A DNA stretch of 64,000 bases from Anaerolineae bacterium. Lineage in GTDB: Bacteria > Chloroflexota > Anaerolineae > Anaerolineales > Anaerolineaceae. Of the stretch, positions 28,113 through 61,035 are shown piece after piece (position 1 is the stretch's first letter; each line of letters begins with the position of its first letter). Below the pieces are notes generated by a model that saw only the letters and a program-made list of their open reading frames with translations, searched no databases and had not been told where the DNA came from. The stretch is from positions 1-64,000 of the forward strand of contig JABUFD010000003.1 of NCBI GenBank assembly GCA_013314735.1, read 5' to 3'. The translations under genes and the position numbers were made by a program.

Positions 28113-28194
28113 TGCCGAAGGTGGGAATCGAACCCACATTCCCGAGGGAACGCGATTTTGAGTCGCGCGCGTCTGCCAATTCCGCCACTTCGGC
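28113..28194 (-). tRNA. tRNA-Leu (anticodon CAA)
   Basis: 82 bases. Acceptor GCCGAAG/CTTCGGC with discriminator A; D arm GGCGGAATTGGCAGAC; anticodon stem CGCGA/TCGCG around loop CTCAAAA, giving CAA; a long type-II variable arm (TTCCCTCGGGAA); T arm GTGGGTTCGATTCCCAC. CCA is not encoded. It reads UUG codons. Confidence 0.96.
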
Positions 28195-55155: not shown

Positions 55156-55193
55156 AAATCCACAGGTCTCAATCGGCCTGTGGATTTTTGTTT
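55156..55193 (+). terminator. Rho-independent terminator after hcp
   Basis: AAATCCACAGG (55156-55166) pairs with CCTGTGGATTT (55177-55187) around a 10-base loop, followed by TTGTTT. Confidence 0.9.
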
Positions 55194-55354
55194 AAGACTG
55201 CTTGCTGGAGTGGTCATTGTTACCGCAGGATATCAGAATGGTGGTGAATCCCTTCTATACCAAATCTAAACCCCAAGGGAGTACCGGAATACTACAATCA
55301 TGCAAATTCGTTCCCCACCCTGTCAGATGATGGGGTAAACCAAGGAGAAATTTC

Positions 55355-57238
55355 ATGAAAAAAAAGGTACTAACCCTCATCTCTCTCATCATTATCATAC
55401 CACTGGCCGCCTGCGCCACCGGCGTTGCTGACACCCAGACCCAGGCGGTAACCTCAGGCACAGTGTCGGAATCAACCACAGACCTTACCAGTACGGAAAC
55501 AGAAAGCAGCCTGGTATTGGAGGTACTCACCCATATAACGGCAGAACTCGACCCTCAGGATACCACCTGGAATGAAGCCGATATGATCCCAATCACACTC
55601 GATGGAACCGCCATCTTATCGGAGAATGCTTCCGTCCAGGTACAGGGCAGCACAGCAACCATTACCGATGCCGGAACCTACGCTCTCACCGGCACACTGA
55701 CCAACGGACAGATCATCGTGGACACCCAGGAAGATGGCATGGTGCGATTGGTCCTGGACAGCGCGGCAATTCATAACGCGACCGGTCCGGCGATTCTGGT
55801 GGAAAATGCAGAACAAGTGATGCTTGTTCTCGCCGATGCCACGGAAAATTCCCTCAGCGATGGAACGGAGCGTGTGACGGCAGCGGTCGAAGAAGATGGA
55901 CCCAATGCCACTGTTTACAGCAAAGCGGATCTCATCTTGTATGGAAACGGGACGCTCATTGTCAATGGAAACTACCAGGACGGTATCACCAGCAAGGACA
56001 ATTTATTGATCGCCGGTGGCACTTATATTGTCACGGCGGTTGATGATGGGATTCGCGGCAAGGATTCCCTCCAGGTTCTGGATGGGTACATTACCGTCCA
56101 GGCAGGTGGTGACGGCTTGAAATCAGACAACGAAGAAGATGTCACCCTGGGGTATATCCAGGTGGAAAATGGGCAGATCACAGTGATTGCCAATGGCGAT
56201 GCCATCACAGCCCAGGCCGATGTAATCATTGCAGGTGGTGAATTCAACCTGTCATCCGGTGGTGGAAGCCAGGCCTTACTCACCGACGATACCTCGGCAA
56301 AAGGAATCAAAGCGGTGAATACCATCACCATCACTGGTGGAACTTTCCAGGTGGATTCAGCGGATGATGCGGTACATGCCAATAACAGTATCCTGGTCAC
56401 CGATGGTAGTTTCACAATCACCACGGGAGATGACGGTTTTCATGCGGATGCGGTGCTTCAGATCGATGGCGGAACAATTGCCATTGAAGAATCCTATGAG
56501 GGATTGGAAAGCGCTGTCATCATGATCAACGGGGGTGACATCCATCTTGTGGCAAGTGACGATGGCATCAATGTATCCGGTGGAAACGATGGTTCGGGAA
56601 TGATGAATCCCGCCATGGGTCATGGCACCCGTCCCGAACCCGGGCAGCGGCCAGCCAATGGCTTCGCTCAACCCGGCACAGACGACACGTTCGAATACGA
56701 TGGTGACTATTACCTGTACATCCATGGCGGATATATTGTTGTCAACGCCGATGGAGACGGAGTTGATGTCAATGGCGCGGTGGAAATGACAGCCGGTACC
56801 GTGATTGTCAATGGCCCCACCGACCCAAGAAATGGCGCCATCGATTATGATGCCACATTCACTCTCTCCGGCGGCGCCGTCATTGCGGCAGGCAGTGCGG
56901 GAATGGCACAAAGCGCCGGCAATGTCAGCAGTCAGTATTCGATCCTGATCAATTTCGAGCAGGCTATCCCAGCGGGTACATTGATCCATATCCAGGATGG
57001 CCAGGAAAATGATATTCTCACTTACTCCCCCGCCAAATTATACCAATCCATTGCTTTCACCTCCCCCGCCCTCGTTCGGGGTGAAACCTATACCATCTTT
57101 ATTGGTGGCACAGCTTCAGGTACAGTAACCGATGGGCTATACCAGGTGGACACCTATACCCCGGGGGACGAATATACGACCCTTACATTATCTGAAATGA
57201 TTACCACCATCGGAATCCAGGGCGGTTTCCGCCCATAA
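55355..57238 (+). CDS. DUF4353-type beta-helix lipoprotein with Asp-Gly repeats
   Basis: 627 residues. Lipoprotein signal with lipobox LAAC (Cys20). After a Thr/Ser-rich spacer, residues about 85-540 are short beta-strand repeats of roughly 20-23 residues: each has a GG-type turn and a DDG/DDA/GDG element (VDDGIRG, GGDGLKS, ADDAVHA, GDDGFHA, SDDGINV, DGDGVDV). Right-handed beta-helix fold and surface Ca2+ or sugar binding are inferred. A Pro/Gly-rich insertion (RPEPGQRPANGFAQPG) interrupts near 430. The family is annotated as carbohydrate-binding. AAGGAG precedes the ATG. The gene lies 170 bp ahead of the VTC/DUF4956 genes. Confidence 0.8.
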   Translation: MKKKVLTLISLIIIIPLAACATGVADTQTQAVTSGTVSESTTDLTSTETESSLVLEVLTHITAELDPQDTTWNEADMIPITLDGTAILSENASVQVQGSTATITDAGTYALTGTLTNGQIIVDTQEDGMVRLVLDSAAIHNATGPAILVENAEQVMLVLADATENSLSDGTERVTAAVEEDGPNATVYSKADLILYGNGTLIVNGNYQDGITSKDNLLIAGGTYIVTAVDDGIRGKDSLQVLDGYITVQAGGDGLKSDNEEDVTLGYIQVENGQITVIANGDAITAQADVIIAGGEFNLSSGGGSQALLTDDTSAKGIKAVNTITITGGTFQVDSADDAVHANNSILVTDGSFTITTGDDGFHADAVLQIDGGTIAIEESYEGLESAVIMINGGDIHLVASDDGINVSGGNDGSGMMNPAMGHGTRPEPGQRPANGFAQPGTDDTFEYDGDYYLYIHGGYIVVNADGDGVDVNGAVEMTAGTVIVNGPTDPRNGAIDYDATFTLSGGAVIAAGSAGMAQSAGNVSSQYSILINFEQAIPAGTLIHIQDGQENDILTYSPAKLYQSIAFTSPALVRGETYTIFIGGTASGTVTDGLYQVDTYTPGDEYTTLTLSEMITTIGIQGGFRP

Positions 57239-57275
57239 CCGGAAATTATTTCTTCATCTGTCTCCTCCCCAAACA

Positions 57276-57306
57276 GGGTGCGCCGCTGTGATGCGGCGGC
57301 GCACCC
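57276..57306. other. GC-rich hairpin before the VTC gene
   Basis: GGGTGCGCCGC (57276-57286) pairs with GCGGCGCACCC (57296-57306) around nine bases. No T tract follows on either side, so it may slow or process transcripts between the lipoprotein and the VTC gene rather than terminate fully. Confidence 0.5.
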
Positions 57307-57407
57307 GCACAATCAAAACCCAACGTATACAAAAAGTAAACCAGAAACACCCCGCAACCACGTAAGATATCCGCAACACACACATAGAATCGATTGAGAG
57401 GTTCCCA

Positions 57408-58265
57408 ATGAATCATACAAACCGGACTACGACCCTGATGGAGGCAGAATTAAACAACCAGCCCTGGCAGCTTCCTCAGTTAAGCAGCGGTGGGCAGAGG
57501 TTTGTTAATAATCTCCAGACCCTGGTCGGAAAATTCGCCCCTATCTCCTTAAATGAAATGGATCAGGCGGCGCTGTTGAACCGGATCGATACCAAATACG
57601 TCTTCCCTATTGACCAACTGCGCTGGCTTCTGCCCGAATGCAGCCGGTCCTATCGTATCTTGTCGGTGGCGGGAACCCGCCTCAACCATTATCGCACACT
57701 CTACTTCGACACCCCATATTTCGACCTGTACCTGATGCATGTCAATGAACGCGCGGAACGTTACAAAATTCGCAGCCGCCAGTATACCGATTCCAACGAT
57801 TCCTTCCTGGAAGTGAAACACAAGACCCGCAAAGATCGCACCATTAAGACCCGCATTGCCACCAGCAGCATGATCGAGACCATCTCGATCGAAATGGACA
57901 AATGGCTCTCTGGTATATTTCCACTGGAAACCCGCCATCTGGAACCAAAAATTTGGAACACATTCACCCGCATCACCCTGGTTAACCAAACCCGTCCGGA
58001 ACGAGTTACGCTCGACACCGACATCACCTTCCACTGGGGCAGCCAGGCAATTTCACTGCCGGATATCGTCATCGCCGAGGTGAAAACAGGGCAAGGAAGC
58101 GCCGATTCGCCCTTCATAGCCCAGATGCACAACAACCACATTCACCCGCAGGGCTTCAGCAAGTATTGTTTGGGGATTTCCCTGCTCTACCACGAGGTAA
58201 AAAAGAACAATCTTAAACCCAAAATGCTGCGTATTCAGAAAATCAGCAAAGGAGAATTGGCATGA
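57408..58265 (+). CDS. VTC-domain protein, polyphosphate-polymerase-like
   Basis: 285 residues. A VTC tunnel domain covers about 45-270. Basic tunnel residues are present in order: NRIDTKY (Arg59, Lys63), HYRTLYFDT (Arg96), ERYKIRSRQY (Arg122, Arg124), FLEVKHK (Glu135, Lys137), RKDRTIKTR, VIAEVKTGQG, and the late GFSKYCLG lysine. In yeast Vtc4 this fold makes polyphosphate from ATP with an Arg/Lys-lined tunnel and a metal-binding Glu. The key set looks intact here, so polyphosphate or a related anionic polymer is predicted. No membrane segment of its own. Overlaps the DUF4956 gene (ATGA). Confidence 0.8.
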   Translation: MNHTNRTTTLMEAELNNQPWQLPQLSSGGQRFVNNLQTLVGKFAPISLNEMDQAALLNRIDTKYVFPIDQLRWLLPECSRSYRILSVAGTRLNHYRTLYFDTPYFDLYLMHVNERAERYKIRSRQYTDSNDSFLEVKHKTRKDRTIKTRIATSSMIETISIEMDKWLSGIFPLETRHLEPKIWNTFTRITLVNQTRPERVTLDTDITFHWGSQAISLPDIVIAEVKTGQGSADSPFIAQMHNNHIHPQGFSKYCLGISLLYHEVKKNNLKPKMLRIQKISKGELA

Positions 58266-58900
58266 CAACCCTGGGTAATTTTCTTTTCAGTTTCGGTTTC
58301 AACTTTCTGGTCACATTGATCATTGTTCGTTTGATCTATTATCCGACCACCCCCAATAAACGATACGTTTTCACATTCCTAGCCTTTAATACCGTGATCT
58401 ACTTTGTTCTGACCTTCATGAACAGCATCGAGATAGGTGTCGGGGTGGGATTTGGCCTGTTTGCCATTTTCTCAATCCTGCGCTACCGGACAGACCCCAT
58501 CCCGATCCGCGAAATGACCTATTTATTCATCATCGCCGCCCTGCCCGTTATGAATTCCGCCGGGAGTGATGTGACCATCTGGCCGCAAATGATCGCTGCC
58601 AACATCGCCATCATGGTCATCATGGCGGTTCTGGAGAAGGAATGGGGGTTCCATTACGAAGCCTCAAAACGCGTCATCTATGAAAAAATCGAATTGATCC
58701 GCCCGGATCGCCGTGCCGAATTGGTGGCCGATCTCGAACTGCGCACCGGCCTTCGTGTGAAAAAGATTGCGGTAGGTAAGATCGATTTCCTGCGTGATAT
58801 CGCCGAAATACGTGTGTATTACGATGATATACACCAGGAAGGTTGGCTCAACCACATAGAATCTTCCATTGTCCTGTTAAATGGCGATGATGCAGATTGA
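58262..58900 (+). CDS. DUF4956 membrane protein
   Basis: 212 residues. Four TM helices in the first 130 residues with the family's conserved loop GLFAIFSILRYRTDPIPIREMTYLF. A cytosolic alpha/beta C-terminal domain (about 135-212; ELRTGLRVKKIAVGKIDFLRD) follows. DUF4956 genes commonly sit next to VTC-domain genes; function unknown. By analogy with the TM part of the yeast VTC complex it may anchor the polymerase and form a translocation path (inference). Translationally coupled to the VTC gene. Confidence 0.85.
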   Translation: MTTLGNFLFSFGFNFLVTLIIVRLIYYPTTPNKRYVFTFLAFNTVIYFVLTFMNSIEIGVGVGFGLFAIFSILRYRTDPIPIREMTYLFIIAALPVMNSAGSDVTIWPQMIAANIAIMVIMAVLEKEWGFHYEASKRVIYEKIELIRPDRRAELVADLELRTGLRVKKIAVGKIDFLRDIAEIRVYYDDIHQEGWLNHIESSIVLLNGDDAD

Positions 58901-58960
58901 CCGGTAACGCACTGTTTTGCAATCTCACGAATGGATTTCACAATTGGATATAATGAATTT

Positions 58961-59647
58961 ATGACCCGGAAAATCTTAGTGGTTGATGATACGCGGAATG
59001 TGCAGGTGTTATTATGTGACTTCCTCGGCAGCCAGGGTTTTGAAGTCCAGGCAGCATCCGACGGGAAAGAAGCGCTGGCATGTGTTAAGGATTTCAAACC
59101 TGATCTGATCCTGCTCGATATCATGATGCCGTCCATGGACGGCTATCAATTCATCAGCCATTTACGTAGGGATTCCAATATTCCGGTCATCATGATCACG
59201 GCCAAACAGCAGGAGGCGGATGTTGTGAAAGGATTCGATCTCGGCGCCGATGACTATATCATCAAGCCGTTTCGTATGCGCGAGTTATTGGTCCGCATCC
59301 GGGCGGTTCTGCGCCGTGCCGCTGCCGAAACGGCCGCCCAGCCTCTACTGGTCGTCGGCGACATCACCCTGGATTCCAGCAAGCACGATGTCAGGAAACA
59401 GGATCAACCAATCGAGTTAACCCCGCTGGAATTCCTGGTGCTGGAGCGACTGATGCAGAACGCCGGGCAGGTAGTAAAGCGCGCCGAATTGTGCATGCAA
59501 TTGCTCGAAAATGGGTTCAGCGGTTCAGAAGCAACCCTCAAGATTCACATCCGCAACCTGCGGATGAAACTGGAAGAGAACCTGGCTCAACCCCGCTACA
59601 TTGAAACCGTCTTTGGGATTGGTTATCGTTTCATGGAGGGCTCATGA
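58961..59647 (+). CDS. OmpR-family response regulator
   Basis: 228 residues from ATG 58961, the usual distance before KILVVDD; ATG 58931 is an in-frame alternative. Receiver domain with Asp53 (LILLDIMMPSMDG) and Lys in YIIKPFRM; C-terminal winged helix (ELTPLEFLVLERLMQN, ATLKIHIRNLRMKLE, VFGIGYRF). The start has only a weak ribosome-binding site, and TATAAT lies at 58949-58954, so a leaderless transcript is possible. It overlaps the kinase gene by 4 bp. Confidence 0.9.
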   Translation: MTRKILVVDDTRNVQVLLCDFLGSQGFEVQAASDGKEALACVKDFKPDLILLDIMMPSMDGYQFISHLRRDSNIPVIMITAKQQEADVVKGFDLGADDYIIKPFRMRELLVRIRAVLRRAAAETAAQPLLVVGDITLDSSKHDVRKQDQPIELTPLEFLVLERLMQNAGQVVKRAELCMQLLENGFSGSEATLKIHIRNLRMKLEENLAQPRYIETVFGIGYRFMEGS

Positions 59648-61035
59648 AAAACACATCGCTAAAACTGAAACTGATCCTGTCTTATCTCGCAGTTGCCCTC
59701 ATCACCGTGCTGGCAGTGCTGGTTCTAATCCGCCTTACCTCAGGACAATTCATGCTGAATATGGTGGTGGAGCAGCAAACCGCATGGGTGGAAGATGAGA
59801 TCATCACATACTATACAACCAATGGAACCATGAGTGGTTTCATCGACTACTATAACCAGATCACACACCCCCAACCATCATTCGCACCGCCGGAGGCAGG
59901 CGATATTCCGCCCGTCTCACGTGAATTGCGCGGTGTGCTGGGTTTGCTGGATGCATCGTACCGTGCATTGATCCCCACCTTCGGGTATAAAGTGGGAGAG
60001 GCAGTCCCCAGCGAAATGGTACGGCAATCCATTCCTGTTGAAGTTGAGGGCGAGACCATCGCCCTCATCCTGCCTGATACCAAGTACCAATTCAAGCTGA
60101 GCTTTGAGGAAAAATTGTTTTTACAGAGGACCACCCTGGCAACAGGCCTGGCGGCAGGCGTGGGTGTAATCCTGGCACTTTCGATGGGTTTCTTCTTTGC
60201 CGCCCAATTATTAAAACCGATTTTTAAGTTACAGCGCGCTTCCCAGGCACTTGCCAGGGGCGATCTCCAACAGCAGGTGACCAACACATCGCACGATGAA
60301 ATCGGGCAACTGGTCGAAGCATTCAACCAGATGAGCGCAGACCTTCACCGGGCTGACCAACAACGCAAACGTCTGACCGCCGATATCACCCATGACCTCA
60401 GTACTCCTTTGCAGATCATTTCGGGATATGTGGAAATGCTGGAGGAAGAGGATCTGCAGCTGACCCCGCAGCGGTTGGAAATCATCCGGACAGAAATCGG
60501 CCACCTGCGCCGCCTGGTGGATGACCTGGGCATCCTCACCCAGGTGGAAGCCGGTGGATTGGAAATGCAAATTCAAAAGATTTATCCTGCTTTCCTGCTG
60601 GAGCAGATTTTCCAGGTCTATCGACCCATTGCCGCTCACCATGGCATCCAAATGGAACTGGCACTCCCTGGTTCCCTACCCGCCATCCTGGCGGATGAAG
60701 GTCGGATGTTACAGGTGATTAAGAACCTGGTTGAAAATGCCTTGCGATATACCCCGGCAGGCGGCACGGTCACTCTGGGCGTCAGCCTCAATGATAAAAT
60801 GGAAATCTCCATCAAAGACACAGGTTCCGGGATTGACCCTGATGATCTTCCTTACGTGTTCGATCGTTTTTACCGGGCAGATAAATCCCGCGGCGCAAAT
60901 TCCGGCAAAATGGGGCTGGGATTGGCGATCTGCAAGGCGCTGGTCACTGCCCAACAGGGTGATATCACCGCCCATTGCACCCCGAATGAACCTGGCACAA
61001 CCATGCTGATGCGTTTTGATCCCGTGGTTGACTGA
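59644..61035 (+). CDS. Membrane histidine kinase
   Basis: 463 residues. TM1 (about 10-30), an extracytoplasmic sensor region of about 130 residues, TM2 (about 160-190), HAMP (KLQRASQALARGDL), HisKA with His250 in DITHDLSTPLQIISGY, and HATPase_c with NLVENALRYTPAGG, DTGSGIDPDDLP and MGLGLAICKALV. BaeS-like organisation for envelope signals. Cognate of the response regulator at 58961. The signal is unknown; the adjacent VTC/DUF4956/lipoprotein genes are the obvious candidates for target or input. Confidence 0.92.
   Translation: MKNTSLKLKLILSYLAVALITVLAVLVLIRLTSGQFMLNMVVEQQTAWVEDEIITYYTTNGTMSGFIDYYNQITHPQPSFAPPEAGDIPPVSRELRGVLGLLDASYRALIPTFGYKVGEAVPSEMVRQSIPVEVEGETIALILPDTKYQFKLSFEEKLFLQRTTLATGLAAGVGVILALSMGFFFAAQLLKPIFKLQRASQALARGDLQQQVTNTSHDEIGQLVEAFNQMSADLHRADQQRKRLTADITHDLSTPLQIISGYVEMLEEEDLQLTPQRLEIIRTEIGHLRRLVDDLGILTQVEAGGLEMQIQKIYPAFLLEQIFQVYRPIAAHHGIQMELALPGSLPAILADEGRMLQVIKNLVENALRYTPAGGTVTLGVSLNDKMEISIKDTGSGIDPDDLPYVFDRFYRADKSRGANSGKMGLGLAICKALVTAQQGDITAHCTPNEPGTTMLMRFDPVVD

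Follow-up and report, generated by a model that had tools for sequence, protein, structure and literature searches.

Among the described systems closest to the locus reported here are the VTC complex of yeast (Vtc4/Vtc3/Vtc1) and a trio of accessory genes in Gram-positive Pel clusters, which excerpts of two papers describe as encoding CotH, a polyphosphate polymerase and a DUF4956 protein (PMC7112168; PMC12345266, SIR_1592-1594). The present locus lies in a window of 64,000 nucleotides (contig JABUFD010000003.1, positions 1 to 64,000 of the forward strand) from an Anaerolineae bacterium whose genome comprises 4.09 Mb in 13 contigs. It consists of five genes for a beta-helix lipoprotein, a VTC-domain protein, a DUF4956 membrane protein, a response regulator (RR) and a sensor histidine kinase (HK). 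The VTC-DUF4956 pair is already in print beside CotH, and the locus is a new regulated variant of this known pair. Genome comparison strongly supported that the five genes belong together as one system, and by the same comparison the HK/RR pair was shown to be dedicated to the VTC-DUF4956 locus.

Like the Pel-cluster accessory genes, the locus combines a VTC-type polymerase with a DUF4956/MgtC-ACT-type membrane protein and a secreted partner. In contrast to them, this partner is a Cthe_2159-type lipoprotein, a dedicated two-component system (TCS) is present and predicted operators precede both transcription units. With the yeast complex the locus shares the predicted triphosphate tunnel fold, the aligned catalytic residues and a membrane partner. 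It differs in the lack of an SPX match, in a DUF4956 protein of five predicted helices instead of the three-helix Vtc1-type domain and in a probable two-component control. The lipoprotein has the PF14262 domain of Cthe_2159 from Clostridium thermocellum (E 9.3e-33 to the solved protein), but it is longer (627 amino acids (aa); solved chain 313), lipid-anchored, encoded beside VTC-DUF4956 and preceded by a predicted operator. PolS-PolR of Microlunatus phosphovorus likewise exerts two-component control of polyphosphate-related genes; VTC, DUF4956 and Cthe_2159 are unmentioned in the excerpt of that report, and the likeness is one of descriptions only (PMC6754071). Among the literature matches listed, no paper dealt with the operon, its regulator or its operator, and none settled the function of prokaryotic VTC-DUF4956 pairs. 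Record titles place such pairs in four phyla or more. When the pair works, and together with what, can be approached through the regulator, its probable operator, the surface genes co-regulated with the pair and the exchange of the lipoprotein for CotH.

A conserved five-gene locus

The features of the locus are as follows.

55160..55189, + strand: hairpin and T run (CCACAGG-N10-CCTGTGG-ATTTTT, by eye), probable terminator of the upstream hybrid-cluster-protein gene
55255..55298, + strand: probable operator/promoter 1, CTATACC-AAATC-TAAACC-N20-TACAAT, 5' of the lipoprotein gene (motif comparison)
55355..57238, + strand: Cthe_2159-type (PF14262) beta-helix lipoprotein, 627 aa, lipobox LAAC (Pfam 2e-95)
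57276..57306, + strand: 14-bp G+C-rich hairpin in the lipoprotein-VTC interval, probable terminator or attenuator (minimum free energy -31.4, z -3.7)
57326..57368, + strand: probable operator/promoter 2, TATACA-AAAAG-TAAACC-N20-TAAGAT, 5' of VTC (motif comparison)
57408..58265, + strand: VTC-domain (triphosphate tunnel) protein, 285 aa (VTC/PF09359, 7e-30)
58262..58900, + strand: membrane protein of the DUF4956 family, 212 aa, with five predicted helices and an alpha/beta domain at the C-terminus; perhaps distantly related to MgtC (DUF4956/PF16316, 1.2e-54)
58931..59647, + strand: OmpR-family RR, 238 aa (Pfam)
59644..61035, + strand: sensor HK, HAMP-HisKA-HATPase, 463 aa (Pfam)

A preliminary description, made from the DNA of the window alone, had listed five consecutive genes on the + strand with 4-bp overlaps between VTC and DUF4956 and between RR and HK. 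The open reading frames (ORFs) were found at these coordinates, all with Pfam matches, and both overlaps are present. The RR gene starts 30 bp 3' of the DUF4956 end. The RR consists of a receiver and a Trans_reg_C domain and the HK of HAMP-HisKA-HATPase, as belongs to an OmpR-family TCS.

The occurrence of the genes was determined in 61 genomes, the window's own and 60 relatives (genomes are labelled G and loci L below). VTC was found in 28 genomes, DUF4956 in 31 (30 above the Pfam cut-off) and Cthe_2159 in 18. DUF4956 was present in 28/28 VTC genomes, and VTC together with DUF4956 in 18/18 Cthe_2159 genomes. Canonical DUF4956 (>140 bits) occurred in 18 genomes, 17 of which contained Cthe_2159; in five of these 17 (G016, G022, G041, G046, G033) it was located on a different contig or at a distance of 11 kb. 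From all fetches, some of them made through VTC matches, 104 DUF4956 loci were pooled, with contig copies counted once, no correction for kinship and some incomplete flanks. VTC was situated at most 500 bp from DUF4956 in 103 of them. When loci were fetched through DUF4956 alone, VTC was directly upstream in 79/80 (the best 80 of 567 relatives, from named genomes). By record titles these 80 belong to Chloroflexota, Acidobacteriota, methanogenic archaea and Bacteroidota. The exception is L070, where Cthe_2159 adjoins DUF4956 and no trace of VTC was detected. The RR-HK overlap of 4 bp was kept in 17/18 TCS-containing loci. Co-occurrence thus extends across relatives and, within the 61 genomes, HK orthologues always lie beside the pair. 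This bears out the preliminary proposal of one conserved system, against which a lack of co-occurrence beyond this strain would have spoken. The full module is present in Longilinea arvoryzae KOME-1 (Anaerolineaceae; NZ_DF967972.1, L064) and a CotH variant in Pelolinea submarina MO-CFX1 (Anaerolineaceae; L100), so the question can be addressed in named strains. In three Bacteroidota loci (L099, L102, L105) VTC-DUF4956 stands amid small predicted secreted or lipoprotein genes, which may represent a further type of partner.

Orthologues of the HK (at least 53% identity) were detected in 13/61 genomes including the window's own, and 13/13 are encoded beside a canonical VTC-DUF4956 pair. The matches in the 12 other genomes showed 53-63% identity; the next best score corresponded to 42%, and one partial match to 44%. 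For the RR, identities of 65-75% at TCS loci compare with at most 39% among other neighbourhood proteins, except for a partial match (123 residues, 50% identity). In a family-wide set of 147 genomes (HK matches at E ≤1e-108) the HK was found in 32 genomes, canonical DUF4956 in 34 and both in 22. In two of the ten HK genomes lacking a detected DUF4956 the locus is interrupted by a contig end (L249, L250). A single genus accounts for seven more (L241-L247), with RR-HK and operator and an otherwise incomplete operon; in L242 and L246 remains of DUF4956 persist in the interval from operator to RR. Judged from the genes, the operon is lost in this genus, with decay in progress. At the remaining locus, L248, VTC directly precedes RR and DUF4956 is missing, through real loss or an assembly error. 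Among the 12 DUF4956 genomes without an HK match, RR or HK is interrupted by a contig end in two (L263, L264).

A probable operator and two probable transcription units

Reading of the DNA before Cthe_2159 genes revealed the pattern CTATACC-N5-TA[AT]ACC-N20-TANAAT, with a spacer of 19 in two cases. Its half sites form a direct repeat with an 11-bp period ahead of the -10 hexamer. OmpR/PhoB-type promoters have direct-repeat half sites of 11-bp period beside the -10 element and a Trans_reg_C regulator, and such a period is expected for an OmpR/PhoB-type dimer. The promoters found here resemble them in the 11-bp-period repeats beside -10, here with TATACC half sites tied to the TCS. With at most one mismatch the element precedes 17/18 Cthe_2159 copies in TCS-containing genomes, 16 by script and that of L063 after correction of the start. 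It was absent before all 11 copies elsewhere (0/11; five in genomes without an HK orthologue, six for which the locus alone was seen); the best match there had five mismatches, also over wider regions.

The motif was derived from Cthe_2159 promoters; therefore, the VTC counts serve as the test. The element was found before VTC in 17/18 TCS-containing loci, in 16 with at most three mismatches and in L092 as a box inside a too-long ORF. At the exception, L063, VTC follows Cthe_2159 after a gap of 15 bp. None of 64 VTC-A genes at loci without a TCS was preceded by the element (0/64), and shuffled regions yielded 0/340 and 0/360 with three or fewer mismatches. Eight independent loci fetched later, with a TCS or its contig-end remains (L248, L252, L253, L256, L258, L259, L263, L264), showed it before 5/5 Cthe_2159 genes with at most one mismatch and before 8/8 VTC genes with at most two; the start of the longest ORF falls within the box in L256 and L264. 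Four later loci without a TCS (L261, L266, L267, L268) had no operator. At the HK-only loci it lies upstream of RR in 7/7.

A genome-wide scan was performed with at most two mismatches over 17 positions and a spacer of 20, using the reversed pattern as control. The window's genome contained two sites, 55256 and 57326, both at this locus, and none of the reversed pattern. Across 13 TCS-containing genomes 50 full sites were counted vs 8 reversed ones, and across 13 genomes without the TCS 12 vs 18. Judged by position, 11 of the 50 sites belong to Cthe_2159 promoters and 12 to VTC promoters; 27 lie elsewhere, about eight of the latter being expected by chance from the reversed-pattern control. 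In G022 the element precedes an unlinked Cthe_2159 gene while the TCS lies on another contig, which suggests that the regulator and not the neighbourhood explains the motif. The TATACC-repeat element is probably the operator of the RR. The preliminary description had suggested control by the HK/RR pair and binding sites upstream of 55355 and 57408. Candidate operators were found before exactly these two genes, and control by the pair is very probable from predicted operators before lipoprotein and VTC genes that are linked to the TCS across genomes. A probable operator precedes both the lipoprotein gene and the VTC-DUF4956-RR-HK unit, so the TCS would drive both gene groups and, as part of the second, itself. 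At two CotH variants with a TCS (L259; L067, the same place as L260) VTC and RR are each preceded by the operator, suggesting that the regulator controls itself.

The genes downstream of part of the other 27 sites were inspected in 20 stretches. The element was found before a CotH lipoprotein gene in G022 and, in both G002 and G030, before a divergent pair for a NAGPA phosphodiester glycosidase and a VTT-domain protein (in G030 the VTT score falls slightly short of the Pfam cut-off). In G005 it precedes a GT2-GtrA-NAGPA gene located between Cthe_2159 and VTC. In L201 and L220, divergent NAGPA and VTT-domain membrane genes carry operators on both sides. Matches also precede HlyD-, DUF4405- and HtrA-type genes, which may be due to chance, and no gene could be clearly assigned downstream of the site in L214. 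We place most trust in the repeated NAGPA-with-VTT case and the CotH case. Genes of surface-glycan type are thus among those preceded by further sites, and these sites point to a cell-surface regulon, in which single cases may be chance.

The hairpin at 57276..57306 lies ahead of operator 2 and is not followed by a T run. On account of this strong hairpin and the second operator between lipoprotein and VTC, the five genes are probably transcribed as two separate units. Folding of 11 lipoprotein-VTC intervals gave z values, from mononucleotide shuffles, of -2.7 or lower in 10/11 and -0.1 in L025; the interval of L022 includes part of a broken Cthe_2159 frame. T runs follow some of the interval hairpins and are missing behind others. 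General scans remained at shuffle level for sigma-70 promoters (9 found vs 7.1 expected) and below it for terminators; the loop limit of the terminator scan was 8, and its list did not include the hairpin at 55160..55189.

The VTC protein and its partners

The VTC protein scored 104.7 bits with the Pfam VTC model (cut-off 23). In 22 divergent proteins of both subtypes 14 charged or polar tunnel residues are invariant (R59, K63, R122, R124, E135, K137, K147, R188, R199, D203, E224, K226, S251, K252), and they align with Vtc4 residues. This agrees with the intact row of Arg/Lys and Glu positions noted in the preliminary description, for which a loss of tunnel residues in homologues, not seen here, would have been damaging. 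R122, R124 and E224 are by alignment the counterparts of Vtc4 R264, R266 and E426 (the numbering of the Vtc4 chain used here is taken to exceed the published one by three). According to an excerpt of PMC9911596 these three residues are conserved and were changed to inactivate Vtc4. A VTC profile run against solved proteins found Vtc chains alone at E ≤1, the best at 2e-16, unlike phmmer with the single protein, which gave no match at E ≤1. In the predicted structure (pLDDT 84.8) the fold is nearest to Vtc chains, with Z 16.6-18.0 for the best seven rows (Z 18.0 and root-mean-square deviation 3.1 over 214 residues to 9umg_E; 17.7 and 3.2 over 215 residues to 3g3r_A). The next tunnel enzyme followed at Z 15.3, and two further Vtc4 entries were lower, at 14.3 and 13.6. 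SPX was not detected; Pfam at E ≤0.01 yielded VTC alone. These comparisons strongly suggest a Vtc4-type triphosphate tunnel enzyme with DUF4956 as its near-constant membrane partner, and polyphosphate synthesis by the VTC protein is likely by homology. PPK1 as an obligatory partner or a substitute of VTC was ruled out by its presence in 15/28 VTC genomes vs 13/33 others.

The DUF4956 protein scored 185 bits (Pfam cut-off 30.6). Its model is of low confidence (pLDDT 68) and shows five helices and a C-terminal alpha/beta domain; hydropathy peaks occur at the same five places, some of them merging. Four transmembrane helices, as originally counted, are therefore to be replaced by five predicted ones. 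In 17 homologues the consensus motifs GxGFGLFAxF and LRxRT...REMxYLF were observed, in which not every letter is invariant. R74, R76 and R83 are probably situated at the cytosolic ends of helices 3 and 4 of the model. Structure searches with this model gave no Foldseek match under E 0.001 and no match with Z ≥8, an absence from which we draw no conclusion. The DUF4956 profile matched among solved structures two interleukin-34 sequences alone (E 0.7-0.8). A Vtc1-type domain was not found, since Pfam at E ≤0.01 yielded DUF4956 alone. Comparison of profiles by hhalign gave 96% between type A, the window's subtype, and type B, 96% between type B and MgtC, and 2% between type A and MgtC directly. 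The MgtC Pfam model matched three type-B proteins below its cut-off (E 1.1e-4 to 3.4e-4). MgtC is known as a regulator. The earlier idea that DUF4956 replaces the Vtc1 transmembrane module as a polymer channel finds no support here: the profile comparison points, indirectly via type B, to MgtC. An excerpt of PMC12345266 likewise reads the S. intermedius counterpart SIR_1592 as MgtC plus ACT.

Type-B DUF4956 also occurs in larger contexts. At L055:8308-10080 it shares one frame with a 3-keto-disaccharide hydrolase domain, and other long type-B frames comprise 450-480 aa. Proteins of up to about 900 aa are encoded beside type-B VTC/DUF4956 in L052, L053, L056, L058 and L059. The L052 protein, the one that was scanned, gave weak CotH and beta-helix matches, and both partner types may meet in one protein.

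The lipoprotein matched PF14262 with 319.5 bits (cut-off 25.8) and, by phmmer, the solved protein 4PEU/4PHB with 9.3e-33. This entry, listed in the PDB as an uncharacterized protein, we take to be Cthe_2159 of C. thermocellum. The sequence contains 84 acidic vs 18 basic residues and five DDG/GDG motifs instead of the six or more turns counted before. An excerpt of PMC6712302 names cellulose and polygalacturonic acid as ligands of the Cthe_2159 family. In the 104 loci, the 5.5 kb around DUF4956 contained Cthe_2159 in 32, CotH in 25, both in 0 and neither in 47; these counts follow our own profile thresholds, and CotH identity was confirmed by Pfam in representative proteins. In G022 both genes are present, unlinked and each with an operator. 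Thus, Cthe_2159 and CotH replace each other at the level of the locus and not of the cell.

PelG gave no match in 60/61 genomes including the window's, and a contig-end fragment in G003; this search covered the 61 genomes, not the other named ones. Pel is thereby ruled out as the context in the window's genome. CotH-VTC-DUF4956 neighbourhoods occur in PelG-negative genomes (for example G016, G028, G041, G046), which disagrees with the statement in an excerpt of PMC12345266 that its three-gene synteny was not found outside the Pel locus. The same paper reports for S. intermedius that all four accessory mutants still aggregate, that the SIR_1592 and CotH mutants lose more than half of their aggregation in sputum medium, and that Pel is increased in the SIR_1592 mutant and decreased in the CotH mutant.

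A possible surface system and its alternatives

We propose a two-component-controlled surface system encoded in two units, in which polyphosphate made by the VTC protein would be exported and bound or used outside by the beta-helix protein. An envelope or surface signal would act through HK/RR on the operators of both units. The VTC protein would make polyphosphate from ATP at the inner membrane face, and DUF4956 would hold the enzyme at the membrane and gate or regulate the hand-over of the chain out of the cytosol. The beta-helix protein, acidic and lipid-anchored, may bind or use the polyanion and its cations outside in an adhesive coat; at other loci the CotH kinase would take this outer role. 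Comparison lends strong support to the grouping of the genes and to its control; export, surface use and signal are what we infer. This tentative reading was assigned a probability of roughly 0.4. If the polymer is indeed exported, the locus would be a polyphosphate surface system, which could explain the phosphate source of extracytoplasmic CotH kinases. A wider version appears rather unlikely: an outward polyphosphate system of bacteria and archaea with a Vtc4-type polymerase and an MgtC-type partner, the chain being pushed through the membrane during synthesis and used outside as a calcium-bound coat with beta-helix lipoproteins or as the phosphate donor of CotH, and switched in Anaerolineaceae by a dedicated sensor.

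Several observations weigh against the proposed surface system. DUF4956 is tied to MgtC rather than to a channel, albeit indirectly via type B and with a direct value of 2%. The window's genome also has PPK1, and the counts given above reveal no clear link between PPK1 and VTC. For the loss of SIR_1593, which has the polyphosphate polymerase domain, the excerpt of PMC12345266 describes no change, whereas loss of its neighbours alters Pel or aggregation. Family-wide, the tie of the HK is looser, with 10/32 HK genomes lacking a detected DUF4956 and identities that reach as low as 48%. No operator precedes the second Cthe_2159 copy of the TCS-containing genome G002 (L043), and half sites without the -10 hexamer are unspecific (36 matches, including two exact ones, at up to one mismatch vs 25 reversed in the window's genome).

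Alternatively, VTC-DUF4956 could be an inner, MgtC-like device balancing phosphate and ATP, with polyphosphate as a buffer inside or at the membrane and the adhesin merely co-regulated by the same envelope stress signal. Both hhalign values of 96%, the sub-threshold MgtC matches of the three type-B proteins and the MgtC-plus-ACT reading of SIR_1592 (excerpt of PMC12345266) argue for it. A predicted secreted partner, Cthe_2159 or CotH, in 57/104 loci speaks against it, as does the PPK1 already present in the window's genome, and we regard such a device as doubtful. The module might instead supply phosphate for the modification of surface glycans or proteins, with exported polyphosphate or a related product as the donor used by CotH-type kinases or glycan enzymes outside the cytoplasm. 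This would suit the CotH genes adjoining the pair in 25/104 loci, the operators before CotH (G022), NAGPA and VTT (G002, G030) and GT2-GtrA-NAGPA (G005), and the lowered Pel on loss of the CotH gene in S. intermedius (excerpt of PMC12345266). The window's locus, however, contains no such kinase or glycosyltransferase gene, and at up to two mismatches the two operator sites of this locus are the only ones in its genome. We know of no such donor activity and consider this explanation unlikely. That the VTC protein has another tunnel-enzyme activity (tripolyphosphatase, NTPase or cyclase) and forms no polymer seems very improbable: the fold search also yielded triphosphatases and class IV cyclases, and several superfamily members are not polymerases, but Vtc chains rank first by structure and are the sole solved proteins reached by the sequence profile at E ≤1. 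Anti-phage defence was rejected as a role, as PADLOC gave no match for the first three proteins and weak matches alone for RR and HK.

The flanking genes, for a hybrid-cluster-protein upstream and for TIM-barrel and histidine-phosphatase proteins downstream, show by gene content no visible tie to the system. Elsewhere in the window one tRNA gene is located at 28113-28194 on the minus strand, the sole Rfam match above the gathering score.

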